Source of the DNA: a bacterium
GTDB taxonomy: Bacteria > Actinomycetota > Acidimicrobiia > Acidimicrobiales > CATQHL01
DNA length: 37,067 nucleotides
Reading direction: 5' to 3'
Assembly (NCBI GenBank): GCA_028824415.1
Contig: JAPPDX010000078.1
Location: forward strand, 1 to 37,067
In this document: piece after piece, positions 3,841-35,830 of the stretch
Layout: every line of letters starts with the position of its first letter
Numbering within the stretch: the stretch's first letter is position 1
Notes under the pieces: model-generated
Database searches by the model: none
Seen by the model: the letters and a program-made list of their open reading frames with translations, nothing else
Told to the model about the DNA's origin: nothing
Position numbers and translations under genes: made by a program

Positions 3841-3901
3841 GACCCCATGTGGACGGGGGTCTTCGGAGCGCTGCGACGTGTTGGCGTGTACTGTTCGCGG
3901 T

Positions 3902-4041
3902 GCCGTTGAACGTCGGGGTCTTGCCGGACTCCCACTAGTGCGACCGTCTGCGGGGAGGACCTTTCCCGGGGCTCCCTTTGGAGGGTCGCGTGGGCGTTGA
4001 ACGGCGGTTGAGGTCCGTTTCGCGCCGAGGGGAGCCGCTCC
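3902..4041 (+). promoter_or_regulatory. structured 5' leader RNA candidate, copy 1
   Basis: This 140-nt leader ends at the GTG start of the 14-repeat RCC1 gene and is clearly homologous to 13311-13450, which precedes the second RCC1 gene. Predicted elements are an outer stem (GCCGTTGAACG at 3902 with CGTTGAACGGC at 3994, one mismatch), an internal hairpin with a TTGCCG loop, a GCGACC/GGTCGC stem (3940-3945 with 3984-3989), and a GGGGAG/CTCCC hairpin. The 3' end carries a GGGGAG ribosome-binding site. One base pair in the TTGCCG hairpin changes from C-G to T-A between copies, which is compensatory. No known riboswitch class could be assigned. Confidence 0.55.
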
Positions 4042-6291
4042 GTGAGCACCGCCGATCCCGCCGAGCCCGCCCTTTCCGAGTTCGTTGCCCGCCGCCCGTC
4101 CGCGACCGCGCCGGTGGCACCGCGATCGCGGATTTGCCGCGCGCGTCCCCGCCGCGTAACGAGGAGCGGCCTCGCTGCGGCTGTGGCGGTGGTGGCGGTG
4201 CTCGCCGCGGTGGCGGTGTCGTCGCCTGTCGCGGCGCAGTCGGGGGATGATCGCTCCGATGAGGTGCGCATCGTGGCGCGTCGGCTCGCTGATGCACGTC
4301 TCGAGTTCGGCCTGCAACAGCGCGACGCTGGGGACTCCTGGGGCGAGCGGATGCTGCCCACTCAGCGTTTCTTTCCCGCCGACGCCGCGGTGGACCGGTG
4401 GTTGCGGAGTTCGCCGCTGACCGTCCGCGTCGCCGCGTCGGGCGATGAGGACGCCGTCGACGTGGCGGTGCGGATCGTGGCCCGCAAGGTCGCCGACGGG
4501 CGGGTGGAGTTCGGCCTGCGCAAGGTCCAAAGCGACGGCACTCTCAGTGGCACCCTCCTGCCGCGGTCGCGTTTCTTCCCCACCGACGCCGCCGTCGGGC
4601 GGTGGCTGCAGAGCACCCCCGTCTCGGTGACGACCACCCGGCCGGCCAGCGCGGCACCCACGACACCGACCGCGCCGGAGCCCGCGCCGGAGCCTGCGGC
4701 CCGGTACACCGGCGTTGCTGCGGGCTATGCGCACGCCTGTGCGATCGGCTCTGAGGGGTCGGTGGTCTGTTGGGGCGACAACTCCGCGGGCCAGGCGAGC
4801 CCCCCGCCGGGACGGTTCAGCGCCGTGACCGCCGGCGCCTGGTACTCCTGCGCCCTGCGCACCGACGGCGCCATCGCCTGCTGGGGAGAGTCCGACGCCG
4901 TGGCGGAGACGCCAACGAGCGGGCAGTTCGAAGCGGTCGCCGCGGGCTCCTCGCATGCCTGCGCGGTCCGGACAGGCCAGACACTCACATGCTGGGGCAA
5001 CAACGACGACGGCCAGGCCGACGCCCCCGGCGGGCAGTTCGCGGCGGTCGGCGGCGGCAACTTTCACTCCTGCGCCCTGAGCACCGGCGGCACCATCACG
5101 TGCTGGGGCACCGACCCCCACGGCATCTTCGGCCAGCTCGACGCGCCGAGCGGCCAGTTCACCACCCTGTCGGTCGGCAACGCACACTCGTGCGCCCTGC
5201 AGGCCGACGGGACCGCCGCCTGCTGGGGCAGCAACGACACCGGCGAAACCGATCTCCCGTCGGCGCAGTTCAGCGCCGTCGCCGCCGGCGCATCACACAC
5301 CTGCGCCATCCGCACCAGCGGGACGATCGCCTGCACCGGATGGAACTCCGACGGCCAGGCGGATCCCCCCGCCGGGCAGTTCAGCGCCGTCGCCGCCGGC
5401 GGACGCCTGTCGTGCGGACTGGGCACGGACAGCGGCATTCGCTGCTGGGGCCTCGACGTGGCGGGCCCATGGGGCGGGCAATTCACCGCCATCGACGCGG
5501 GAGACGCGCACCTCTGCGGCCTCGGCGCCGACGGCACCGTCTCCTGCGCCGGAGCAGCCGGTCTCTTCGGCCAGTCTGAGGTTCCCGAGGGGCGGTTCAT
5601 CGCGGTCGCCGCCGGTGACCGCCACTCGTGCGGGGTGCGCGCCGATGGTTCCATCGCCTGCTGGGGCAGCACGGCGTACGGCCTGTTGAACGCCCCCACC
5701 GGGGAGTTCAACACCATCGCCGCCGGCGGCTGGCACACCTGCGCGTTGCGCAGCAACGGGACCGCCACCTGCTGGGGTTCGGGTCGCTACGGCGAACTCA
5801 GCCCCCCGCCGGGTGCCTTCAGCGCGCTCGCCGTCGGCTGGTGGCACGTCTGCGGCCTGCGCAGCGACGCCAGCATCGCCTGCTGGGGATCCAACAGCGA
5901 AGCGCAGACGGCAGCACCGGAGGGGAACTTCCAGGCGATCGCCGCCGGCCGGTCGCACTCCTGCGCGCTCCGCAGCGACGGCACCGTCACCTGCTGGGGC
6001 AGCAACCGGTACGGCCAGACCGACGCCCCCAGCGGGGAATTCACCGACATCACCGTCAACGACTGGCACTCATGCGCGCTCCGCACCGACGGCACCGTCA
6101 CCTGCTGGGGAAACAACCCCGACGAAGACTTCGGCCAGGCCGACGCCCCCGAAGATCGGTTCACCGCCGTCACCGCCGGGAGGGGATTCACCTGCGGCCT
6201 GCACGAAGACGGCACCGCGCGTTGCTGGGGCCGGTCACCGTGGACCGCGATCCCCAGCGGCGCGGAGTTCGCCAGCGGCCGGCCTGCGTGA
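4042..6291 (+). CDS. secreted/anchored protein with 14 RCC1-type beta-propeller repeats
   Basis: A 749-residue protein with a long basic N-terminus and then a hydrophobic segment around residues 44-68 ending in VAAQS (signal peptide or anchor). Residues about 73-120 and 148-195 are two copies of a small domain with the pattern RIVAR..ADGRVEFGL...LP..RFFP.DAAV.RWL.S. After a Thr/Pro/Ala linker come fourteen units of about 38 residues of the type F.AVAAG..HSCALR.DGT..CWG, characteristic of RCC1/BLIP-II-like propellers. Fourteen units suit two seven-bladed propellers. Most blades carry two Cys (SCALR and CWG), possibly one disulfide per blade. The start is a GTG behind GGGGAG in the structured leader. 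The next small gene overlaps its stop. Likely role: extracellular binding or interaction; the ligand is unknown. Confidence 0.8.
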   Translation: MSTADPAEPALSEFVARRPSATAPVAPRSRICRARPRRVTRSGLAAAVAVVAVLAAVAVSSPVAAQSGDDRSDEVRIVARRLADARLEFGLQQRDAGDSWGERMLPTQRFFPADAAVDRWLRSSPLTVRVAASGDEDAVDVAVRIVARKVADGRVEFGLRKVQSDGTLSGTLLPRSRFFPTDAAVGRWLQSTPVSVTTTRPASAAPTTPTAPEPAPEPAARYTGVAAGYAHACAIGSEGSVVCWGDNSAGQASPPPGRFSAVTAGAWYSCALRTDGAIACWGESDAVAETPTSGQFEAVAAGSSHACAVRTGQTLTCWGNNDDGQADAPGGQFAAVGGGNFHSCALSTGGTITCWGTDPHGIFGQLDAPSGQFTTLSVGNAHSCALQADGTAACWGSNDTGETDLPSAQFSAVAAGASHTCAIRTSGTIACTGWNSDGQADPPAGQFSAVAAGGRLSCGLGTDSGIRCWGLDVAGPWGGQFTAIDAGDAHLCGLGADGTVSCAGAAGLFGQSEVPEGRFIAVAAGDRHSCGVRADGSIACWGSTAYGLLNAPTGEFNTIAAGGWHTCALRSNGTATCWGSGRYGELSPPPGAFSALAVGWWHVCGLRSDASIACWGSNSEAQTAAPEGNFQAIAAGRSHSCALRSDGTVTCWGSNRYGQTDAPSGEFTDITVNDWHSCALRTDGTVTCWGNNPDEDFGQADAPEDRFTAVTAGRGFTCGLHEDGTARCWGRSPWTAIPSGAEFASGRPA

Positions 6292-13080: not shown

Positions 13081-13310
13081 GAACGCGAGATGTGGGGATT
13101 CGGTTAGCAACTCCCCCACCAACCCCCCTCGCGGGGCCGGACACACCGCCGGCGCCAAGCTCTCCGCGCCGAGGAGGCTCAACGGCGCCGACAGAACCAC
13201 GAGGCGCCGCGCCGGCGCTAGCCGGGGCGCGCCCAATTCGACGGGCGATCCCCTCCTCGGGCGATTGCGGCTCTCAGTGGCCCCCACCGGCGGCGTGTAA
13301 TCTCTCGGTT

Positions 13311-13450
13311 GCCGTTGAACGCCGGAGCCTTGCCGGGCTCCGCGGAAGCGACCTGTTTGCGGGGAGGACCTTTACCGGGGCTCCCTTCGGAGGGTCGCGT
13401 GGGCGTTCAACGGCAATTGAAGTCCGATCCGCCCCGAAGGGAGCCACCCC
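13311..13450 (+). promoter_or_regulatory. structured 5' leader RNA candidate, copy 2
   Basis: Homologous to 3902-4041. A perfect 13-bp outer stem pairs 13311-13323 with 13402-13414. Inside lie a GGAGCC-TTGCCG-GGCTCC hairpin (13324-13341), a GCGACC/GGTCGC stem (13348-13353 with 13393-13398) and a GGGAG/CTCCC hairpin. The 3' end carries an AAGGGAG ribosome-binding site before the GTG at 13451. The leader sits upstream of another secreted RCC1-repeat gene, so the pairing of leader and gene type is conserved within the window. It could be a riboswitch, a protein-binding leader or a translation-control element. Confidence 0.6.
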
Positions 13451-13582
13451 GTGAGCACCACCGAACCTCCCGAGGTCGCCCGCGCTGACAGCCACGCTCG
13501 GCGCCCGACACCCACCGCGGCCACGCCGACCGCGCCCGCCCGCGCATCACTCGCCGCGCGCCTGGACGAGGCCCGGCGATGA
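13451..13582 (+). CDS. 43-aa leader ORF upstream of the RCC1 lipoprotein
   Basis: Starts at a GTG with AAGGGAG upstream and reads MSTTEPPEVARADSHARRPT, ending ARLDEARR. Its stop overlaps the ATG of the lipoprotein gene (ATGA, 13579-13582). The start context and first residues match the N-terminus of the 14-repeat RCC1 protein (MSTADPAEPA...ARRPS) encoded after leader copy 1. It is therefore either a conserved translated leader whose end feeds ribosomes to the next gene, or the detached N-terminus of a once-continuous gene. It has no signal peptide. Confidence 0.5.
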   Translation: MSTTEPPEVARADSHARRPTPTAATPTAPARASLAARLDEARR

Positions 13583-14679
13583 GCGACGACAGCGCCGCTC
13601 CCGGAGACGGGGCGAAGATCGATTTCGAGGCGATGGGCGACTGCCCATCGATGTCGAATGCGCGTCGGCTTCGCCACGTCGTCGTGCTGCTGGTGCTGGT
13701 GCTGTTGGGATCGGCGTGCGGCGGCGAGCCTGAGCCTGAGTCCGGCGCCGAAGCTGGCGCGCAGACCAACGCGTCGCGGGTCGGCTCGGGGTCCGAAGAT
13801 GCGGGCGATCAGGGGCCGAACTCCGACGCCGGGACCTCGCCCAGGGCCACAAGCTCCGAACCACCACCCCCACCCACGACCATCGACGTCGCCTTCAGCC
13901 CTCTCAGCGTCGGCGGGGGCCACTCATGCTGGTTGCCTGGTGACGGCACCATCACCTGCTGGGGCGACAACCGCCACGGCCAGCTCGAGGCGCCCGACGG
14001 CCAGTTCACCGCCGTCAGCGCCGGCGCGGCTCATTCGTGCGGCGTGCGCGGCGACGGCACCGTCACCTGCTGGGGAGGCAACGACGACGGGCAGACCGAT
14101 GCGCCCGACGGCGTGTTCCGCGCCGTCAGCGCCGGCTGGGGCCACTCGTGCGGCGTGCGCGGCGGCGGCACCATCACCTGCTGGGGCGACGGCCGGCAGG
14201 GCAAGCTCGAGGCCCCCGACGGCCAGTTCACCGCCGTCAGCGCCGGCGACCGTTTCTCCTGTGGGCTGCGCACCGACGGCACCGTCACCTGCTGGGGAGG
14301 CAGCGGGTTCTGGGGGCCGCCTACTCCGCCCGACGGCGTCTTCACCGCCATCAGCGCCGGCACAGAGCATTTCTGCGGGGTGCGCGGCGACGGCACCATC
14401 ACCTGCTGGGGCCACGACTCCTCCGCGAAGACTCGTGCGCCCGACGGCGCATTCACCGCCGTCAGCGCCGGCGACAACCATTCCTGCGGGGTGCGCTCAG
14501 ATGACACCATCACCTGCTGGGGCGGCTACATGGGCAGAAGGACTGTCGCACCCGACGGACAGTTCACCGCCGTCAGCGCCGGCGACGACTATTCCTGCGG
14601 GGTGCGCCCCGATGGCACCATTGCGTGCTGGGGCGAAAACATCAACTACCGGAACGCCGATACGCCCGGGCAAGGCTAA
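13579..14679 (+). CDS. lipoprotein with a 7-repeat RCC1-type propeller
   Basis: A 366-residue protein. Residues about 30-52 form a signal segment (RHVVVLLVLVLLGSACGG) with a lipobox-like Cys, so it is probably lipid-anchored outside the membrane. An acidic, Ser/Pro-rich linker follows to about residue 97. Exactly seven units of the type F.AVSAG..HSCGVRGDGTITCWG then fit one complete seven-bladed propeller, with two Cys per blade. The start ATG overlaps the stop of the 43-aa ORF, indicating translational coupling under the structured leader. The next gene begins 42 nt downstream and may be co-transcribed. Function: probably extracellular binding; unknown partner. Confidence 0.8.
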   Translation: MSDDSAAPGDGAKIDFEAMGDCPSMSNARRLRHVVVLLVLVLLGSACGGEPEPESGAEAGAQTNASRVGSGSEDAGDQGPNSDAGTSPRATSSEPPPPPTTIDVAFSPLSVGGGHSCWLPGDGTITCWGDNRHGQLEAPDGQFTAVSAGAAHSCGVRGDGTVTCWGGNDDGQTDAPDGVFRAVSAGWGHSCGVRGGGTITCWGDGRQGKLEAPDGQFTAVSAGDRFSCGLRTDGTVTCWGGSGFWGPPTPPDGVFTAISAGTEHFCGVRGDGTITCWGHDSSAKTRAPDGAFTAVSAGDNHSCGVRSDDTITCWGGYMGRRTVAPDGQFTAVSAGDDYSCGVRPDGTIACWGENINYRNADTPGQG

Positions 14680-25660: not shown

Positions 25661-25817
25661 GCCCTCGCCGCCGAGTCTGGTTCCTTCCCGTCTCTGACGA
25701 TTCCTTTCAGAGCAACCCGAGAGCCCGCCCAAGTCGGGAAGTTGCTCACCACCTCCGCGGCGGACTCAGACACGGAACGTTGCGGCGAGACGGTTGGTCG
25801 AAGATTCCGGGGGAGTG

Positions 25818-28800
25818 ATGACGGCACTATGCCGGCGCGGCACTTACGCATTGTGTGTTCTAGCGGTCTTCATGGTGATTTCCACGAGTCTGGTGAGCGC
25901 GCAGGACGTGGAATCCCCGGTGGTGAGCGAAACTCTGGAGGATGTCTCTCTGACTGTTGGCGACGACGCCTTGAGCGTGGACGTGGCGAGCGGTTTTGGT
26001 GGCGTGGTCGATTCGTATGAGGCCTCATCGGATGACGATGGTGTGGTGAGCGTCTCGGCCGTGGGCTCGGTGGTGTCGCTGACGCCGGTGACGGCGGGAT
26101 CAGCGACCGTGACAGTGTCTGCTGTGAACACCGCGGGGAGTGCGTCGCAGTCCTTCGCGGTGACCGTACGTCCGGCTGTGCCGGTGAGCGCGGAGGAGAT
26201 TTCCGATCAGGAGTTGACTGTTGGCGACGACGCCTTGAGCGTGGACGTGGCGAGCGGTTTCGGCGGTGTGGTCGATTCGTATGAGGCCTCATCGGATGAC
26301 GATGGCGTGGTGAGCGTCTCGGCCGTGGGCTCGGTGGTGTCGCTGACGCCAGTGGCGGCGGGATCAGCGACCGTCACCGTGTCTGCTGTGAACACCGCGG
26401 GCACTGCGTCGCAGTCCTTCGCGGTGACCGTGCGCCCGGCGGTGCCGGTGATCGCCGAGGAGATTCCCGATCAGGAGTTCACCGTCGGCGACGACGCCTC
26501 GAGCGTGGACGTGGCGAGCGGTTTCGGCGGTGTGGTCGATTCGTATGAGGCCTCATCGGATGACGATGGCGTGGTGAGCGTCTCGGCCGTGGGCTCGGTG
26601 GTGTCGCTGACGCCAGTGGCGGCGGGATCAGCGACCGTCACCGTGTCTGCTGTGAACACCGCGGGCACTGCGTCGCAGTCCTTCGCGGTGACCGTGCGCC
26701 CGGCGGTGCCGGTGATCGCCGAGGAGATTCCCGATCAGGAGTTCACCGTCGGCGACGACGCCTCGAGCGTGGACGTGGCGAGCGGTTTCGGCGGTGTGGT
26801 CGATTCGTATGAGGCCTCATCGGATGACGATGGCGTGGTGAGCGTCTCGGCCGTGGGCTCGGTGGTGTCGCTGACGCCAGTGGCGGCGGGAGCAGCGACC
26901 GTCACGATTTCCGCGACCAACGCAACCGGAAGCGTGTCTCAGACCGTGTTCGTCGTTGTCTTGCCGGCTGGTTGTGTTGTGCCGTGGGGGGTTGTGGACG
27001 GGTCGGAGTCTGTTTCTCGTGAGGGCCGCTGGCGCCGGGGCGATATGTGTCGTTCCGTGAATGCCCCCGAGGATCGTGATCGGCGTCACTATGCGCGCTA
27101 CTACTCGCTCGATCTGGCGGAGGCGATGCATGTGCGGATTGGTTTGTCCGGCGCGGACATCCTCACCGATGAGCACTTGTTCCTGTTGGCGGGAACGGGC
27201 ACGACAGGGGCGGTGGTCGCCAGCGACGTCGAGACCGCCGATGCGGCGACTGATCGAGCGTATCTGGAACTCGTCGTCGAGCCCGGCGCGTACACGATCG
27301 AAGCCGCCAGCGGCCACCTCGTCGATGGCTCCTACGAACGCGAGGACGACTTCACGCTGACGATTGACGCGTTCCCGACGTCCCCGTCGGAAGTGCCGGC
27401 TGGTTGTGTTGTGCCGTGGGGGGTTGTGGACGGGTCGGAGTCTGTTTCTCGTGAGGGCCGCTGGCGCCGGGGCGATATGTGTCGTTCCGTGAATGCCCCC
27501 GAGGATCGTGATCGGCGTCACTATGCGCGCTACTACTCGCTCGATCTGGCGGAGGCGATGCATGTGCGGATTGGTTTGTCCGGCGCGGACATCCTCACCG
27601 ATGAGCACTTGTTCCTGTTGGCGGGAACGGGCACGACAGGGGCGGTGGTCGCCAGCGACGTCGAGACCGCCGATGCGGCGACTGATCGAGCGTATCTGGA
27701 ACTCGTCGTCGAGCCCGGCGCGTACACGATCGAAGCCGCCAGCGGCCACCTCGTCGATGGCTCCTACGAACGCGAGGACGACTTCACCCTGACGATTGAC
27801 GCGTTCCCGACGTCCCCGTCGGAAGTGCCGGCTGGTTGTCTCAGGTCAGTCGGGACCGTCGGTGGGCAGTTGGTCGCGGCTCGTGATGGTCGGTGGAGCC
27901 GCGGCGATCTGTGTCGTTCCGTGAATGCCCCCGAGGATCGTGATCGGCGTCATTACGCGCGCTATTTCTCGTTCAGTGTGCCCGAGGCGATGCATGTGCG
28001 GATTGGTCTGAACGGGGCGCAGACGAGGAGCGACGAGTACTTGTACGTGCTGGCGGGTGTCGGCACGACGGGTGCGGTTGTGGCCTCGAACGTCGAGCTT
28101 GAGGACGAGGTGGACGATCTGGCGTCCATCGGTCGGGTGTTCGAGCCGGGCGCCTACACGATCGAGACCACGACCACAGCCGACTTGGAGGACGACTTCA
28201 CGCTGACGATCGATGAGATTGCGGTCGCGTTGCCGAGAAACTGTGTCGAGGCTCCTGGGTCAGCTTGCCCGGTTCCCGTGCTCGCGGGTGCGGTGCTCAA
28301 CGACGGTGCCACGGTCGACTTGATCTATCAAGTGCCGCTCAACGAGTCCTCGATTCCGGAGCTCAGCGCGTTCAGCGTCAGCGTCGACGGCTCGGACCGC
28401 TCTGTCACCGCGGTCACCGTCCGCGACCGCGCGGTGTCTTTGACCTTGGCATCGCCCGTGTCGGCCCCCCAGAGCGTCACGGTCACCTACGCGGTGCCGA
28501 CCGCCGCAGGGCACCCACGCATCGAGAGCGCCGGGGGCCCCGCCGTGGGATTCTCCGACGAACCCGTGACGACCCCGCCGGACCCTCCGACGATCACCCG
28601 CGTCGAATCGACCACCGAGGGCCTAACGATCTCATGGACCCCGGTCGCAGGCATCAGCGGCTACGACGTCGAGTGGCGACGAGACGGCGAGACGGCGTGG
28701 CAACTGTCGAGAGTCGGGGCACAGCAGCAACACACGCTCGGGGGCCTCACGAGCCGCGCCCTGTACTGGGTGCGCATCCGAGCCATCAAGACCCACGAGG

Positions 28801-31800
28801 ACCTGGGCGGCCCGACGACCTACGCCACCGGCTGGTCGGCACTCGAGCCCGGCATCGCCGGCGACTGGGCGCCGCAGAACCTAACCGTCACGCCGGGCGA
28901 CCGAATCCTGACCGCCACATGGGACGACGTGGACGCCGCCACCGATGACTACGAGTTGCAGTGGCGGCCGAAGTCGGCTGCGTCGGCTTCGGCCGTGAGC
29001 GGTTCGCCGAGCACGCGGGGTCAGCGGCGAGGCGACTCAGCGACAGCGCGGAACGTGCTGGAGCCGCCACCGACAGTTCCCGCACCGGCGTGGTCGTCGG
29101 TGCCGGTGGAGTCTGTCGCGCAGGCGTGGAGCGGCACGGTCACGAATCTCCAGAACGGCGAGAACTACAGCGTGCGGGTGCAGTCACTTCGACGTGTCGT
29201 CGTCGACGCCGGAGAACCGACGCAGCGGATCAGGCTCCTTCGTTCTGGCTGGGTGGAGCGGGACGCCGCGCCGACCTTGTCGTTCTCTGTCGCGGAGATC
29301 ACACCTCTTGGTGTTGAGAGTTTCGCGAGAGGGGGCAACCCGGTCCGGCTGTTGCTGCGGTTCGTGCACGGCACCGAAGGCGACAACGCCAACGCCGAGA
29401 GCTTGGCTCAGACGCCGCTGGGCGCGCTGTTCGAGTCGGGACCGAGCCACGAAGCGGGTGTCGGCATTGAGTGCATCAGGTACACGGGGATCTTTCCGGG
29501 TGTGTCTGAAGTCATCGGCAGTGAATGCGTCACCAACAGCTTGGGCTATGTGCGGCTCACCTACACCGTCGGGGCGGTTGGTCGGGACGTGGAGGGCTGG
29601 TCGCGCGACACGGTTCGCATCTTTATCGATCAGAACGCGAACGGCGAGTACGACGAGTCGGAGTCCTACGCCGAGTTCACGGTGCCGATCGCCGAGCCGA
29701 TCGACTACGTCGCGCTGGGCGACTCGTACTCCGCCGGCGAGAACGGCGAGTACTACACCGTCGGCGGGTTCGGCACCGGATTCGCAGGGCAGTACTACTA
29801 CACCAACGGCGCATCCTCCGACTGCCACCGCTGGAACAAGGCATACCCGGTCCTTGTCGCCAACAGCGACCTGAATGTGAACCAACGTACTGGCTTCCCC
29901 GGTACGACACCCGGCGGTCCGCCACCGATCGGCTTCTACGCCTGCACCGGCGCGATCACCCGGAACATCTACCACCCGATGGACACCAACAACGACGGTG
30001 TCCCCGATCAACTTGGAACTGCTGAAGAAATCGCTGACTCAGCCAATCCTAAACTGATCGCAGAAGCTACCACGCTCGCTGCCACGCAAAAAACTGAGAT
30101 TACGAATAGGCCATCGTCGGTAGATCTGATAGAAGAATTCGATTGGCAACAACGCGGTAATCAACATTCGAACTGGGAGCCTCGTCAGGTGGTGTCACTT
30201 GGTGCGGCGAATGCGGTGAGGCCGGTTGATTTGGTGACGTTGACGGTTGGTGGGAATGATCTCGGATTCGCGGAGGGTTTGACTCGCTGTTTCTTTCCGG
30301 ATGTCCCGGTCGGGTATTTTCCTTTCTTCTTGAGCGACTTGGTGTTGGGTTCGGTGCGGTGTGCTCGGGACAGTGGTTTCGAGACAAGGCTGGGGGATCT
30401 CAGGGAGGGCCTTCGTGATGTGCTGGGGGAGCTTCTCGAAGCGACCTCCGACGCGCCTATTTTTGTGTTTGGTTATCCGAATCTTGTGCCGCATGATGAC
30501 AGGGCCTGTTCGGCGTTGACGGCTGAACCGATTCAAGCGGTTTGGAACTCCGACGGATTTGGGTCAATTCGACAATTTGTCTTGGGGCTTGTCGGTGATC
30601 ATGACGTGATTGAGGATGTATCGCTGAGCGCGACGGACCGTCAATTCATTCGGGAGGCGGCGATGGCGTTGAATGACGCAATTGGCGATGAGGTCACGTC
30701 CGCGAACAGCAAAGCCGTGCGGGAGGGTCTTGTTCCTCGCGTGCACTTTGTGGACGTGATGGGGCGATTTGAGGGTCATTCCGCGTGCGGGGACCGTGTG
30801 GCGGATGGCGACGAGTCCGCGGCGAGCAGGTCGAGTGCGGATGGGCTGTGGCTGAACGGCGTGGTCGGTGATGCCCGATCGAGTTCGGCATTTCCCATGT
30901 CGGGGCGGTCCTTCCATCCCACAGCGGCAGGCCATCAGGCGTACGCGTCGGCGCTGATCGACTACATCCGCCAGCGCATCGCGAGCGGCGCGAGGGTCAC
31001 CAGTGCGGGTCTTCCCGACGCCGGAGGCGCCCCGTCGGCGTCCGCTGGCGGGAGGGCGACGCGGACGGGTGAAGGCGGCGGAGGGATCCCGTCGGCGTCC
31101 GCTCGCGGGAAGGCCACGCGGACGGGCGATGGTGGCGGAGATCGCTTGGGGAGGTCGCAGAGCTCGCCGGACGCGACCTCGGAGTCAGAAAAAGAGGAGC
31201 AGCAGGTCATACGGCGGCGGATACTGTGGGCTCGTCCGGCGGAGGGCGCCGCTTCGGGGTGCGGTGTGTTGTGGTCACCCGCTGAGCGGGTGGAGTTCTC
31301 GACGGCGGGGTTCGCGGCGGACTCGACGGTGACGTTTTCGGTGACGGCGGGGACGTTGTCGCGCCGTGATGGGTCCGCGGCGGGGGCGTCGTTGGATCCG
31401 CCCGTGTTGGCGTCGGCGACGGCGGATGGCGAGGGCCGTTTGGCGGCGACTTGGACGCTGCCGACGGCGCCGCACGCCTCGACGCCGGCGTGGTACGCGG
31501 TGAAGGCCGAGGGCGACGCTGCGGGTGGTGGGCGGTTGGTGGCGCGCCTCGTCGCGCCGATTGTTGTGTATCCGGGTGCACAGCCGTGTTCGGCTGACGA
31601 TGTGGCGACGACGACGTTGGGTACCGCGGTCCGGGTGGCTGTGCTGGCCAACGACACGGCGCCCACCGGTGGCGCCTTGGATCCGGCGTCGGTGACCGTG
31701 GAGCCGGTGGGTGGTGTGGAGTTCGTCGTGAACCCGGCCGATGGGTCGGTGACCTTCACGCCCGAGCCCGGGTTCGCGGGCACCGCCACGACACGCTATG

Positions 31801-33308
31801 TGGCCTATGACACCTGGAACGTCGGCATTCGCGCCGAGGTGTCGGTGACCGTGGTGGCGGGCTGCACGATCACCGGTGGGGTTCCCGACGGGTCGGGTGC
31901 TGTGGTGGAGGTGATCGGCACCGACGGCGATGACGTGATCTGTGTGGGCGACCGGACCGACCGTCGGGCGCGCTATCGCGTCGACGCGAAGGCCGGCGAT
32001 GACGTGATCCTCGCGGGCGCGGGCGCGGATGTGGTGTTGGGCGGACCGGGCGTCGATGTGATCTACGGGCGCGGCGGCGACGACCGGCTCGACGGCGGCG
32101 CCGGCGTGGACACGATCCATGGCGGCGGGGGTTTCGACTCGATCTACAGCGCCGACCTGGCCGATGTGATCGTCGACGCCGACGACGGCTACGAGCTGGT
32201 GCTGACGCCGGTGCTGCTGTCGGCGAGCCCCGACGGAGCCGTGGCGCCGGTGGTGGGCGCTGATGCGGTGTTCGCCGAGCCGGGCGGGGTGGTCTTGGTG
32301 AACGTGTTGGACAACGATTTCGACGCCGACGGGAACCTGGACGCTCCCTCGCTGGCGGTCACCCGTGCGCCGCGGCTGGGTGACGCGTTGGTGTTCGCCT
32401 CGGTGCAGGCCGGGCTTGTGGTCCGCTACGCCGCCGGCGAGGCGCCCGGCGCCGATGATTTCGCCTATGAGATCTGTGACACGCTCGGTGCCTGTGCCAC
32501 CGGCGAGGTGACCGTCACCGTCGGAACCAGCAGTTGCACCATTGTGGGCACCGACGGCGACGATGTGCTGGCGGGCACACCGGGCGCGGACGTGATTTGC
32601 GGTCTCGGCGGCGACGACGTGATCAGGGGCCGCGGCGGTAATGACATACTCGTCGGCGGATCCGGCGACGATGAACTCCTCGGCGGCGACGGCGATGACG
32701 TCCTCCACGGCGGATCCGGCGACGACGACCTATACGGCGGCGCCGGCGCGGACGTGTTGTGGGGCGGCGCCGGTCGCGACGCCTTGGAGGGCAACGGTGG
32801 CGATGACGTCCTGCACGGGGGCCCGGGCGTGGACGGCCTGATCGGCGGCGGCGGCGCGGACGTGTTGTGGGGAGGCGACGGCGGCGACAGTCTCATCGGC
32901 CACGCCGGCAACGACACACTGCACGGCGGTCAGGGCAACGATATCCTCGTCGGCGGCAACGGCGACGACAGCCTCTGGGGCGATGCCGGAGACGACAGAC
33001 TCACCGGCAGCAGCGGCGCGGACACCCTCACCGGCGGCGACGGCAACGACACGCTGTGGGGCAACACCCAACACGACGCCCTCGTCGGCGGCAACGGCGA
33101 CGACACACTGCACGGCGGTGGCGGCAACGACGAACTCAACGGCGGCGCCGGCGACGACACGCTCGCCGGCAACGCCGGCGACGACCGCCTCTACGGATCA
33201 TGGGGCGACGACAACCTCACCGGAGGCAACGGCGCTGACTTCCTGCACGGAGGCGACGGCGCCGACACGTGCAGCCGGGGCCCGCTGGTCGCCCGTTGCG
33301 AGGACTAG
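25818..33308 (+). CDS. giant secreted multidomain protein: Ig-like repeats, SGNH hydrolase, RTX repeats
   Basis: About 2,496 residues from the ATG at 25818 (GGGGGAG upstream), with a signal peptide ending LVSAQD. Order, by approximate residue: 35-382, four 88-residue Ig/cadherin-like repeats; 383-805, three copies of an unknown 144-residue domain (CRSVNAPEDRDRRHYARYYS); 806-1130, Big/Fn3-like strands; 1295-1720, an SGNH/GDSL hydrolase with GDSYSAGE (Ser), GGNDLGF (Asn block) and SFHPTAAGHQAY (Asp/His block); 1790-2010, a cadherin-like module (VLANDTAP...GSVTFTPEPGF); 2031-2118 and 2241-2490, Ca-binding RTX nonapeptides (GGxGxD). Probably a large cell-surface or released esterase/lipase. RTX proteins usually use type I secretion, but here a Sec-type signal is present. 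A lipoprotein gene follows 35 nt downstream. Confidence 0.82.
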   Translation: MTALCRRGTYALCVLAVFMVISTSLVSAQDVESPVVSETLEDVSLTVGDDALSVDVASGFGGVVDSYEASSDDDGVVSVSAVGSVVSLTPVTAGSATVTVSAVNTAGSASQSFAVTVRPAVPVSAEEISDQELTVGDDALSVDVASGFGGVVDSYEASSDDDGVVSVSAVGSVVSLTPVAAGSATVTVSAVNTAGTASQSFAVTVRPAVPVIAEEIPDQEFTVGDDASSVDVASGFGGVVDSYEASSDDDGVVSVSAVGSVVSLTPVAAGSATVTVSAVNTAGTASQSFAVTVRPAVPVIAEEIPDQEFTVGDDASSVDVASGFGGVVDSYEASSDDDGVVSVSAVGSVVSLTPVAAGAATVTISATNATGSVSQTVFVVVLPAGCVVPWGVVDGSESVSREGRWRRGDMCRSVNAPEDRDRRHYARYYSLDLAEAMHVRIGLSGADILTDEHLFLLAGTGTTGAVVASDVETADAATDRAYLELVVEPGAYTIEAASGHLVDGSYEREDDFTLTIDAFPTSPSEVPAGCVVPWGVVDGSESVSREGRWRRGDMCRSVNAPEDRDRRHYARYYSLDLAEAMHVRIGLSGADILTDEHLFLLAGTGTTGAVVASDVETADAATDRAYLELVVEPGAYTIEAASGHLVDGSYEREDDFTLTIDAFPTSPSEVPAGCLRSVGTVGGQLVAARDGRWSRGDLCRSVNAPEDRDRRHYARYFSFSVPEAMHVRIGLNGAQTRSDEYLYVLAGVGTTGAVVASNVELEDEVDDLASIGRVFEPGAYTIETTTTADLEDDFTLTIDEIAVALPRNCVEAPGSACPVPVLAGAVLNDGATVDLIYQVPLNESSIPELSAFSVSVDGSDRSVTAVTVRDRAVSLTLASPVSAPQSVTVTYAVPTAAGHPRIESAGGPAVGFSDEPVTTPPDPPTITRVESTTEGLTISWTPVAGISGYDVEWRRDGETAWQLSRVGAQQQHTLGGLTSRALYWVRIRAIKTHEDLGGPTTYATGWSALEPGIAGDWAPQNLTVTPGDRILTATWDDVDAATDDYELQWRPKSAASASAVSGSPSTRGQRRGDSATARNVLEPPPTVPAPAWSSVPVESVAQAWSGTVTNLQNGENYSVRVQSLRRVVVDAGEPTQRIRLLRSGWVERDAAPTLSFSVAEITPLGVESFARGGNPVRLLLRFVHGTEGDNANAESLAQTPLGALFESGPSHEAGVGIECIRYTGIFPGVSEVIGSECVTNSLGYVRLTYTVGAVGRDVEGWSRDTVRIFIDQNANGEYDESESYAEFTVPIAEPIDYVALGDSYSAGENGEYYTVGGFGTGFAGQYYYTNGASSDCHRWNKAYPVLVANSDLNVNQRTGFPGTTPGGPPPIGFYACTGAITRNIYHPMDTNNDGVPDQLGTAEEIADSANPKLIAEATTLAATQKTEITNRPSSVDLIEEFDWQQRGNQHSNWEPRQVVSLGAANAVRPVDLVTLTVGGNDLGFAEGLTRCFFPDVPVGYFPFFLSDLVLGSVRCARDSGFETRLGDLREGLRDVLGELLEATSDAPIFVFGYPNLVPHDDRACSALTAEPIQAVWNSDGFGSIRQFVLGLVGDHDVIEDVSLSATDRQFIREAAMALNDAIGDEVTSANSKAVREGLVPRVHFVDVMGRFEGHSACGDRVADGDESAASRSSADGLWLNGVVGDARSSSAFPMSGRSFHPTAAGHQAYASALIDYIRQRIASGARVTSAGLPDAGGAPSASAGGRATRTGEGGGGIPSASARGKATRTGDGGGDRLGRSQSSPDATSESEKEEQQVIRRRILWARPAEGAASGCGVLWSPAERVEFSTAGFAADSTVTFSVTAGTLSRRDGSAAGASLDPPVLASATADGEGRLAATWTLPTAPHASTPAWYAVKAEGDAAGGGRLVARLVAPIVVYPGAQPCSADDVATTTLGTAVRVAVLANDTAPTGGALDPASVTVEPVGGVEFVVNPADGSVTFTPEPGFAGTATTRYVAYDTWNVGIRAEVSVTVVAGCTITGGVPDGSGAVVEVIGTDGDDVICVGDRTDRRARYRVDAKAGDDVILAGAGADVVLGGPGVDVIYGRGGDDRLDGGAGVDTIHGGGGFDSIYSADLADVIVDADDGYELVLTPVLLSASPDGAVAPVVGADAVFAEPGGVVLVNVLDNDFDADGNLDAPSLAVTRAPRLGDALVFASVQAGLVVRYAAGEAPGADDFAYEICDTLGACATGEVTVTVGTSSCTIVGTDGDDVLAGTPGADVICGLGGDDVIRGRGGNDILVGGSGDDELLGGDGDDVLHGGSGDDDLYGGAGADVLWGGAGRDALEGNGGDDVLHGGPGVDGLIGGGGADVLWGGDGGDSLIGHAGNDTLHGGQGNDILVGGNGDDSLWGDAGDDRLTGSSGADTLTGGDGNDTLWGNTQHDALVGGNGDDTLHGGGGNDELNGGAGDDTLAGNAGDDRLYGSWGDDNLTGGNGADFLHGGDGADTCSRGPLVARCED
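25950..26960. repeat. 264-bp coding repeats (four units) in the giant gene
   Basis: The VGDDA...RPAVPV unit recurs with periods of 267, 264 and 264 bp. Units 2-4 are nearly identical at nucleotide level over more than 200 bp, and the first is slightly diverged. This indicates recent expansion or gene conversion. Confidence 0.85.
26963..27826. repeat. 432-bp perfect-like tandem duplication in the giant gene
   Basis: 26963-27394 and 27395-27826 appear to differ at one silent base (27356 G versus 27788 C). A third, clearly diverged copy of the domain follows at 27827-28230. The duplication adds one 144-residue domain without breaking the frame. Confidence 0.88.
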
Positions 33309-33343
33309 ACACCGGCTATTACCTGCGCTGGCGGGGACGGCTC

Positions 33344-35830
33344 GTGGCGGCGCTGCGCTGGGTGCTCGCCGTGGCCCTCACGGCCGCCGCGTGCACCACC
33401 ACCGACAGCGAGACGAGCGACCCGCCGCCGGAGATGGAGCGGCCCGGCGTGAGCGGTCTGATCGAGGATCCCGCCGCCGTCGCCGCGCCCGGAGACCCCG
33501 TCGATGCTAATCGCCCGGCGCGGGCACGGCCGTCAGCGGGACCGGGCACCGACCTCGAGGGTGGCGGCGTCGACGGGACGTCCCCCACGGCGGGCCGACC
33601 CGACGTGCACGAAGCTCTGGAGGGGTTGGCGGAGGCGGTGGCGGAGGCCGCGGACTTGGCGGGGCTGCTCTCGTTGTCGAGCCGTTTTCCGGGGTTTTGT
33701 GGGGTGCGACCCGGTGGTGCGGTGGAGTGTTCGGATTTCTGGCGTCCCGAGGACATCCCGGCGGGCCGGTTCGGTGCGGTCAGTGCGGGATGGTTGACGG
33801 CGTGCGGTTTGCGTGTCGATGGGTCGGTGGAGTGCTGGGGTGGAGTTCGCGATTGGAGTGATCCAGCGGTTCCGGCGGGGGCGTTCGTGGCGGTTGGTTC
33901 GGGGGGCTTTCGGGCGTGCGGTTTGCGCCCCGGCGGCGGGTTGGAGTGCTGGACTCAACCGGTGCGCGGGTTGCGGGAGGAGGAGGCGCTGGCGTGGTCG
34001 GCGGCGCATCCTGGAGGCGCGTTCGATGCGGTGAGTGTGGGGTACGCGCACGTGTGCGGTCTGCGCCCGGGTGGGGCGGTGGAGTGTTGGGGCGAGGACT
34101 GGTTCGGCCAGTCCACCGCGCCGGGGGGCCGGTTCCTGGCGGTGGCCGCCGGGGTGAGCCATTCGTGCGGCCTGCGCCCCGACGGGTCGGTGGAATGTTG
34201 GGGCGAGGACTCGATCGATTCGGGCTTTTTCGGGTTCTCCGAGGATCGCTATGAGGAAGCCTACTCGGACCCGCTCGGTCCCCTCGAGGACGATGCGTTG
34301 TCGAAGCGGGAGCGTTTCGGTGTCTTGACCTTGGGGGCCGCGGCGCTGGGTGAGGAGACCCTCGGCGTGTTGGTCGAGCGGGCGGCGGGGTGGGAACCGC
34401 CGGGGGGCCCCTACAAGGCGATCAGCGCCGGTGCGGGTTTCACGTGCGGCCTGCGCTTGGACGGTGAGGTCGCGTGTTGGGGTTCTGTTGCCGGCGGGGA
34501 GCCCCGCATCCCGCTGGTGGTCTACGCCGAGGTCGCCGGCGAGCGGGTGCGGGAGCTGCACGCGGCGAAGCGGGCCGAGATACAACGCCACCCGGGCGAA
34601 GAAGACGCGTCGTCGCAGAACTCAGAGGGCGCAGGTCCCTCCCCCGACGGCTCATCCAGCAGCGAGCCCGATGTCGGCGGCGAGGTGGGAACGAGCTTGT
34701 TGGGTTTGCGCTTCGAACTCTACCTCTACAGTACAGTGGTCGGGCAGCTCATGGTTGTGGATCCTCCGGCGGGGCCGTTCGTGGCGATCGACGCCGGATT
34801 CTTGCGGGCGTGTGGTCTGCGCCCCGGCGGCGAGGTTGAATGCTGGGGCCCCGATGACCCCAAGGTGTCGTGGACGCCGTCGGGGCGGTTCGCTTCTGAG
34901 GCTTTGCCTGTGGTTGCGCCGCCGGGGGCGCTTGTCGGGGAGGTGCCTGCGGTGGCGGGTGTTGTGGGTGTTGGGGATCTGGCGGCGATTGGTGGTCTGG
35001 AGGCGCCGGGGGAGGCGGGCGTGGCGGCGCGGGTGGCGGTCGCCGCGGGTTTGCGCGCTGAGCAAGCGGGGCCGGCGCCGCCGGCGGCCGGCGAGGTGAC
35101 TTCGTGGTTCTTGCTGGCGTTGCCGCCGCAGTCGTGGGAGTCGGTTTGCGGGGGCGAGTTGTTGCCGGGCGGGCCCCTGGCGCCGCTGGTGGACCCGCGA
35201 GTCGCCGACGGCCGGGCGCGGCTCCCTCCGGGGCCCTTCGTGCCCGGCGAGGCAGTCGAGTTGCGGACCGCGCTGTTGCGGCCGAATTCGACGGTGCGCC
35301 TGTCGATGATCGGAGGGCCGGTTCCCCGCGGCGGCGAACCGCTGGGGGACGCCGCTTCGCCAGTGGCGCTGCCGCCCGCGGCGGCGGACCCCCAGGGCGA
35401 GTTGTCGCTGCCCTGGACGGTGCCCGCAGCGCCGGCGGGGCGCCTCGGCCCGATGTGGTATCTGGTGCGCGGCACCGGGGTGGCGCAGTTGACCCACCAC
35501 ACCCTGGACGTGCGACTGACCAGCCCGCTCATCGTCTATCCCGACGTGGCGCTGTGCGCCGTCGACGACGAAGCGACGACGACGGCCGGTGTGGCGGTGC
35601 GCGTCGACGTGTTGGCCAACGACATCGCACCGTCGGGCGGTACCTTGGATCCCACCTCGGTGAGCATCGTCCGCGCCGCGGGCGGCGAGTTCGTCGCCAA
35701 CGCCGACGGATCGGTGACCTTCACGCCCGAGGCGGACTTCACGGGCACCGCCCGAGCGCGCTACACCGTCTCAGACACCTGGAACATCAACGCCACCGCA
35801 AACGTCACAGTCACCGTTAAGGCGAACTGA
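33344..35830 (+). CDS. lipoprotein with 7 RCC1-type repeats and cadherin-like C-terminus
   Basis: About 828 residues from a GTG at 33344, giving the lipoprotein signal ALRWVLAVALTAAACTTT; a GTG at 33269 inside the upstream gene is an alternative. After a Pro/Gly-rich linker, seven RCC1-type units are recognisable, for example FDAVSVGYAHVCGLRPGG then AVECWG, each with two Cys. The units are unusually widely spaced, with acidic inserts between blades 5, 6 and 7. The C-terminal 250 residues contain a WYLVRG-type module and a cadherin-like domain (VDVLANDIAPSGGTLDP, GSVTFTPEADFTG, YTVSDTWN). Both resemble the region at 31200-31860 of the giant protein, so the two neighbours share modules and may be co-expressed 35 nt apart. 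Confidence 0.78.
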   Translation: MAALRWVLAVALTAAACTTTDSETSDPPPEMERPGVSGLIEDPAAVAAPGDPVDANRPARARPSAGPGTDLEGGGVDGTSPTAGRPDVHEALEGLAEAVAEAADLAGLLSLSSRFPGFCGVRPGGAVECSDFWRPEDIPAGRFGAVSAGWLTACGLRVDGSVECWGGVRDWSDPAVPAGAFVAVGSGGFRACGLRPGGGLECWTQPVRGLREEEALAWSAAHPGGAFDAVSVGYAHVCGLRPGGAVECWGEDWFGQSTAPGGRFLAVAAGVSHSCGLRPDGSVECWGEDSIDSGFFGFSEDRYEEAYSDPLGPLEDDALSKRERFGVLTLGAAALGEETLGVLVERAAGWEPPGGPYKAISAGAGFTCGLRLDGEVACWGSVAGGEPRIPLVVYAEVAGERVRELHAAKRAEIQRHPGEEDASSQNSEGAGPSPDGSSSSEPDVGGEVGTSLLGLRFELYLYSTVVGQLMVVDPPAGPFVAIDAGFLRACGLRPGGEVECWGPDDPKVSWTPSGRFASEALPVVAPPGALVGEVPAVAGVVGVGDLAAIGGLEAPGEAGVAARVAVAAGLRAEQAGPAPPAAGEVTSWFLLALPPQSWESVCGGELLPGGPLAPLVDPRVADGRARLPPGPFVPGEAVELRTALLRPNSTVRLSMIGGPVPRGGEPLGDAASPVALPPAAADPQGELSLPWTVPAAPAGRLGPMWYLVRGTGVAQLTHHTLDVRLTSPLIVYPDVALCAVDDEATTTAGVAVRVDVLANDIAPSGGTLDPTSVSIVRAAGGEFVANADGSVTFTPEADFTGTARARYTVSDTWNINATANVTVTVKAN

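Follow-up and report, generated by a model that had tools for sequence, protein, structure and literature searches.

Translational riboswitches such as SAM-II, preQ1-II/III, and c-di-GMP-II are characterized by pseudoknots that mask the Shine-Dalgarno (SD) sequence and by strongly conserved binding-pocket bases. The c-di-AMP riboswitch ydaO-yuaA (RF00379) occurs in actinobacteria, and ribosomal protein leaders (e.g., rpsO) control translation through a pseudoknot near the start codon. A leader of approximately 140 nt from Acidimicrobiales resembled each of these systems in part. Like SAM-II, preQ1-II/III, and c-di-GMP-II, it is a structured 5' leader with a loop-tail pseudoknot and a predicted hidden SD sequence, but its helices vary and few of its unpaired bases are conserved, and the Rfam covariance models of these riboswitches did not match the leaders. 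Occurrence in actinobacteria and a GGAGGACC-like stretch are shared with RF00379, which nevertheless did not match either leader region even at an E value of 10. This stretch, likened to c-di-AMP leaders in the preliminary description, was not conserved among relatives and corresponds to one strand of pseudoknot P5, the sequence of which is free to vary between copies. The putatively translation-controlling pseudoknot near the start codon is also a feature of rpsO-type leaders, but those precede ribosomal genes, whereas the genes downstream here are predicted to encode exported or membrane proteins.

No Rfam version 15 family matched at or above the gathering threshold in the window (the whole stretch of DNA analyzed, 37,067 nt, from the forward strand of contig JAPPDX010000078.1, assembly GCA_028824415.1; Acidimicrobiales; CATQHL01). 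Searches of the regions of copies 1 and 2 at E ≤10 returned chance matches only, and searches of 35 loci from relatives at E ≤1 returned no match to a leader, with tRNAs outside the leaders at three loci and one weak chance match to a microRNA. The earlier statement that no known riboswitch matched thus extends to the window, both copies, and the relative loci. A literature search found no description of such an RNA in those parts of the sources that were accessible. Judged from sequence comparison, the leader represents a new RNA family, although its predicted function, translational switching, is of a known kind.

Four copies of the leader were found in its own genome, two in the window (3902 to 4038 and 13311 to 13447) and two on other contigs (copy 3, C72, 6739 to 6891, minus strand; copy 4, C108, 32237 to 32348, very divergent). 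The conserved stretch first reported at both window loci was reproduced, with 84% identity across about 150 nt, each copy ending at a GTG (4042 and 13451) and conservation extending a few codons beyond the start codon. That these leaders precede RCC1 genes held directly for copy 1, in which GTG 4042 starts a 749-amino-acid protein (4042 to 6291) with a hydrophobic N terminus, a VRIVARR-type domain, and 12 RCC1 repeat stretches. For copy 2 it required qualification, as GTG 13451 opens a 43-codon ORF (13451 to 13582), the stop of which overlaps ATG 13579 of the coupled RCC1 repeat protein (13579 to 14679; 366 amino acids, lipoprotein-like N terminus). The gene after copy 4 is a 92-codon ORF apparently shortened by a stop (L194:1516-1791), and a VRIVARR-type gene lies about 1 kb beyond it.

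The fold is a three-way junction of P1, a variable P2, and P3. On the plus strand, copy 1 (3902 to 4044, P1 to the GTG start, by alignment) begins with the 5' arm of P1 (3902 to 3914), which pairs with 3993 to 4005 around a central G.G mismatch, as supported by covariation. The P2 hairpin follows (3915 to 3932; alignment and folding), and then the 5' arm of P3 (3940 to 3945), which pairs with 3984 to 3989 (folding, helix score, and partner swap). The corresponding plus-strand elements of copy 2 (13311 to 13453, by alignment) are P1 (13311 to 13323 with 13402 to 13414; covariation), P2 (13324 to 13341; folding), and P3 (13348 to 13353 with 13393 to 13398; folding and partner swap). The P3 loop holds an anti-SD segment, 12 nt of which are complementary to the ribosome-binding site immediately preceding the start codon. 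A side-by-side reading of the copies revealed that GGCUCCCUUCGG, on the 3' side of the P3 hairpin in copy 2 (13379 to 13390), is the exact complement of the SD segment CCGAAGGGAGCC (13434 to 13445; pattern, sequence, and covariation). In copy 1, the pairing of GGCUCCCUUUGG (3970 to 3981; covariation and partner swap) with the SD segment CCGAGGGGAGCC (4025 to 4036; sequence and covariation) is maintained via G-U pairs. A second, G-rich segment of the P3 loop (G1) and the linker that immediately precedes the ribosome-binding site together form pseudoknot P5, which was missed by single-structure folding. Its 5' strand in copy 1 is GCGGGGAGGACC (3950 to 3961, pairing with the linker at 4012 to 4023; helix score and partner swap), and its strands in copy 2 lie at 13359 to 13370 and 13422 to 13432 (partner swap).

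Single-sequence folding separated the copies from shuffled sequences unevenly. The folding z-score was -2.82 for copy 2 and only -1.08 for copy 1, for which 31 of 200 shuffles folded at least as well and 48 of 500 shuffles matched its mismatched P1. All 13 P1 pairs changed on both sides in alignment A12, in which 97.0% of P1 cells were paired in register versus 33.5 to 41.4% when slid; this alignment was fitted to P1 and includes three opposite-strand rows. Both-side changes were already present at 7 of 13 P1 pairs in the first five-copy MAFFT alignment. Across 41 copies, the summed helix score was 307 for P3 (shuffles, 228; standard deviation, 6) and 331 for P5, scored between the linker and the 32 nt immediately 5' of the anti-SD (shuffles, 238; standard deviation, 7), versus 230 for the rest of the inner region (shuffles, 222). 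The anti-SD:SD helix scored 444.5 against a shuffle maximum of 210.5, with 27 both-side changes at 8 of its 12 positions in 39 of the 41 copies. Individually significant copies numbered 26 of 41 for P3 and only 22 of 41 for P5, which in copies 2 and 3 singly was no better than in shuffles; the best single examples of P5 were in SB0675 (TGCGGAC/GTCCGCA with GGGGTTC/GAACCCC) and G362d (AGCGGGC/GCCCGCT with GGATGC/GCATCC).

Because shuffles leave a shared consensus uncontrolled, partners were swapped among copies. In 31 nonredundant copies, between which relatedness is not fully removed, P1, P3, P5, and anti-SD:SD were each matched in 0 of 5,000 permutations, and a control region was matched in 2,033 of 5,000. 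The hairpin P4 (GGGGAG/CUCCC in P3, i.e., G1:anti-SD), obtained from energy folding, was rejected, with a weak helix score and 926 of 5,000 swaps as good; the supported partner of its 5' strand is the linker. The proposal that the same stems form in both window copies stands for the three-way junction, which folds in both, whereas this inner stem lacked comparative support. The compensatory change reported in the UUGCC hairpin (P2) was confirmed, a C-G pair of copy 2 being U3919-A3928 in copy 1, and the argument for RNA conservation was strengthened by the both-side changes throughout P1 and by the partner-swap results for four helices.

The 41 copies comprised 39 from covariance model R2 (44 matches less 3 on the opposite strand and 2 duplicates) together with L236 and L243. 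Base counts were made on 35 of them, omitting G155c, G226c, G400c, G379a, G204b, and G298, in which segments were poorly placed by the script, and the 31-copy swap test further omitted the near-identical G362a, G331a, G331b, and copy 2. A 99% copy of copy 2 in G002 was left out of the counts. Most copies were found by P1-bearing models, which biases the set towards P1, while the P3, P5, and anti-SD:SD pairings are absent from the search models as pairs.

Other Acidimicrobiales also carry the leader, though its sequence there differs greatly. Searched without P1, the anti-SD/SD pair pattern turned up in 5 of the family's 9 genomes, where the backwards-pattern control gave zero matches, and in 5 of 397 genomes of the order, all of one genus. 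In a collection of 84,980 genomes, it matched five stretches, four of them in acidimicrobial metagenome-assembled genomes (MAGs; SB0675_bin_16, SB0668_bin_6, COS4_bin_33 [G005], and RHO2_bin_76 [G008]); the fifth, from a member of the Planctomycetota (L071), was put aside as a probable chance match. P1 was present with different letters in G005/COS4 and SB0675. The genus relatives G006 and G008 (L066/L174 and L067/L074) lacked a convincing P1 but keep anti-SD:SD as an SD-masking hairpin that is perfect or nearly so, and they may carry a reduced form of the switch; the hairpin in G008 precedes an ORF that by eye resembles an exonuclease with a BRCT domain. Both genomes lie outside the 41 copies, with G008 still among the 12 genomes of R1 and the 19 rows from which R2 was built. 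No viral contig carried the exact pattern (0 contigs), which argues against a phage origin.

Covariance model R1, built from a five-copy seed, recovered SB0675, which was absent from the seed, at an E value of 1.4e-7. Among 397 genomes of the order, R1 matched 12 at E ≤0.005, and these belong to three genera, each from a different family; about 2 chance matches are expected at this threshold, and the matches outside the genus of the window were confined to two genera. In the family that includes G155, model R2 matched 16 of 22 genomes at E ≤0.001. Over 396 genomes sampled across the phylum, its sole match was the window's own genome; this search provides a false-positive control, although large searches filter more strictly. 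Genomes carried up to four copies, before different genes. At one locus (G397:C263 1822-3121; L227), two leaders were observed back to back, on opposite strands and separated by about 1 kb.

Promoter-like sequences preceded the leaders at regular distances. Relative to P1, 20 of the 41 copies had the motif TANNNT at exactly -13 and 28 had it at -14 to -11; in 20 of the 41, TTG was located at -36 to -38. In the window, these -10 boxes are TACTGT (3889 to 3894, plus strand, 13 nt before P1) and TAATCT (13298 to 13303, plus strand), assigned by sequence and family spacing. The usual spacing of sigma-70-type promoters puts the transcript start at P1; therefore, transcripts should begin there. At the other end, ACC directly followed the SD in nearly all of the 35 core copies, and a start codon was at most 16 nt away in 40 of 41. 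These arrangements bear on a very improbable alternative, in which the leader is a DNA element (an operator, a transposon end, or a cassette recombination site) with inverted repeats that resemble RNA stems. The P1 arms of copies 1 to 3 are near-palindromic (CGTTNAACG), as such an element would predict, and a TnpB/IS605 OrfB-like ORF lies just 5' of copy 3 on the same strand (L002:2049-3137, minus), with C-x2-C zinc-finger pairs recognized by eye in its translation. However, the -10 box, P1, SD, and start codon are in fixed order and spacing on one strand, the P5 pairing is crossing, and the P1 arms of copy 4, G005, and others are nonpalindromic. Integron attC sites have the core arms RYYYAAC and GTTRRRY, and the P1 arms of copies 1 to 3 did not fit these on comparison by eye only.

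Downstream ORFs (n = 40) included 28 with at least 90 codons within the available locus sequence and 12 with fewer than 50 codons, some of which were at contig ends or apparently broken. Hydrophobic N termini were predicted for 27 of these 40 ORFs versus 17 of 72 other ORFs at the same loci, and the downstream genes are accordingly enriched for putative exported proteins, of which RCC1 proteins, such as that after copy 1, are only part. A Pfam scan of 20 downstream proteins placed 4 above a family cutoff and left 16 without a family, returning RCC1, SLH, TM2, and little else. The specific association with RCC1 genes suggested originally was not borne out: most other RCC1 genes of the genome have no leader, so RCC1-specific control was rejected, and leaders across the family precede other putative exported proteins. 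A leader peptide or attenuator was rejected as well, with no conserved upstream ORF and with frames and starts that differed among the 8 copies examined, as was a generic SD reading of CGAAGGGAGCC, which occurred no more than 6 times in any genome, a low count near that of the backwards-pattern control. A domain of about 60 amino acids, VRIVARRLADGRVEFGL, was observed near the N termini of secreted proteins in the window (4240 to 4431) and at many loci, with up to 41 matches per genome in the genus and no Pfam match over the domain in the scanned proteins. The window also contains a 2,504-amino-acid ORF (25794 to 33308) with RTX calcium-binding repeats and with cadherin-like, fn3, and bacterial Ig domains; the next gene encodes an RCC1 and Ig protein (33269 to 35830).

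The distribution of conserved bases bears on what might act on the leader. Besides the anti-SD, SD, and ACC, only one linker position and one loop position among those examined exceeded 1 bit in the 35 copies, in which segments were placed by script. It is unlikely that the leader is a metabolite or ion riboswitch of a new class, with the P1-P2-P3-P5 pseudoknot as the aptamer and a ligand choosing between P5 and anti-SD:SD. The presence of up to four copies before different genes would suit such a riboswitch, as would the combination of a pseudoknotted junction with an SD-masking platform, which is the usual layout of translational riboswitches. Unlike in known aptamers, however, the examined positions outside the anti-SD, SD, and ACC were poorly conserved, and no metabolic genes were recognized among the 20 downstream proteins scanned. 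No conserved unpaired aptamer core emerged, linker and loop positions being low in information, and for this reason the leader was not filed as a riboswitch despite a predicted mode of working like that of translational riboswitches; with so little sequence conservation in the loops, a metabolite aptamer is a candidate only. Somewhat less likely again is a leader bound by a regulatory RNA-binding protein that reads the junction or the SD/anti-SD and coordinates exported proteins. Its appeal is that the downstream genes have export signals rather than a pathway in common and that conserved sequence is concentrated in the anti-SD, SD, and ACC. No candidate protein was identified, however, and the sequences of P1, P3, and P5 are free to vary, so that recognition would need to be of shape.

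The reading favored here, as the probable one, is that the leader acts in cis as an RNA switch of translation, with P5 (open) and anti-SD:SD (closed) in competition. In pseudoknot-free energies, the P1-P3 form and the SD-masked form were -78.2 and -80.6 kcal/mol in copy 2, -84.1 and -84.6 kcal/mol in copy 3, and -68.9 and -73.7 kcal/mol in SB0675, i.e., the SD-open and SD-masked forms were at most 5 kcal/mol apart. The open form was favored by about 8 to 20 kcal/mol in copies 1 and 4 and G005 (MFE, with pseudoknots outside the energies). Duplex strengths ranged from about -7 to -25 kcal/mol for P5 and from about -14 to -27 kcal/mol for anti-SD:SD, the duplex that would have to melt in the physiological range if the leader were an RNA thermometer. 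The two helices have no bases in common. Along the chain, G1 and the anti-SD come first and the linker and SD later, and the bridge from G1 to the anti-SD is 3 to 10 nt by eye; forming both helices at once would require these 3 to 10 nt to span the far ends of two long helices, and P5 and anti-SD:SD are therefore probably mutually exclusive. Both are supported by covariation and, given this inferred exclusion, would together constitute an expression platform with alternative structures.

Transcription of such a switch would start at P1, and P1 and P3 would make the three-way junction with the variable P2, so that the P3 loop would present its G-rich segment to the linker and its C-rich anti-SD to the ribosome-binding site. 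The ribosome-binding site would be open when P5 is formed and closed when anti-SD:SD is formed. Because the order of synthesis would let P5 form before the ribosome-binding site emerges, the default would be ON; the switch would turn OFF under a condition in which P5 or the junction is loosened. The four helices, the fixed spacing of promoter and start codon, and the link to putative exported proteins are supported by sequence comparison, while the mutual exclusion of the two pairings, the ON/OFF direction, and the action of some signal on the switch are what we infer.

In a more tentative reading, any signal, whether temperature, Mg2+, the state of translation, or a protein that reads shape, would act via fold stability and not via a conserved pocket, and sensing of this kind would explain why the helices change freely in sequence. 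We tentatively propose a new family of RNA switches in a group of Acidimicrobiales, including sponge symbionts, in which competition between two loop-tail pairings would tune the production of surface and exported proteins and sensing would be by fold stability. Several genomes of the lineage are presumably from marine sponges, judging by MAG names. The family would have been missed by sequence searches and Rfam because conservation is almost confined to the ribosome-binding site and the segment complementary to it, and similar covariation-rich switches may hide in other lineages. For an uncultured, little-known marine lineage, the leader would provide a switch, open to testing, that governs secreted and surface proteins, which are the likeliest to touch a host.
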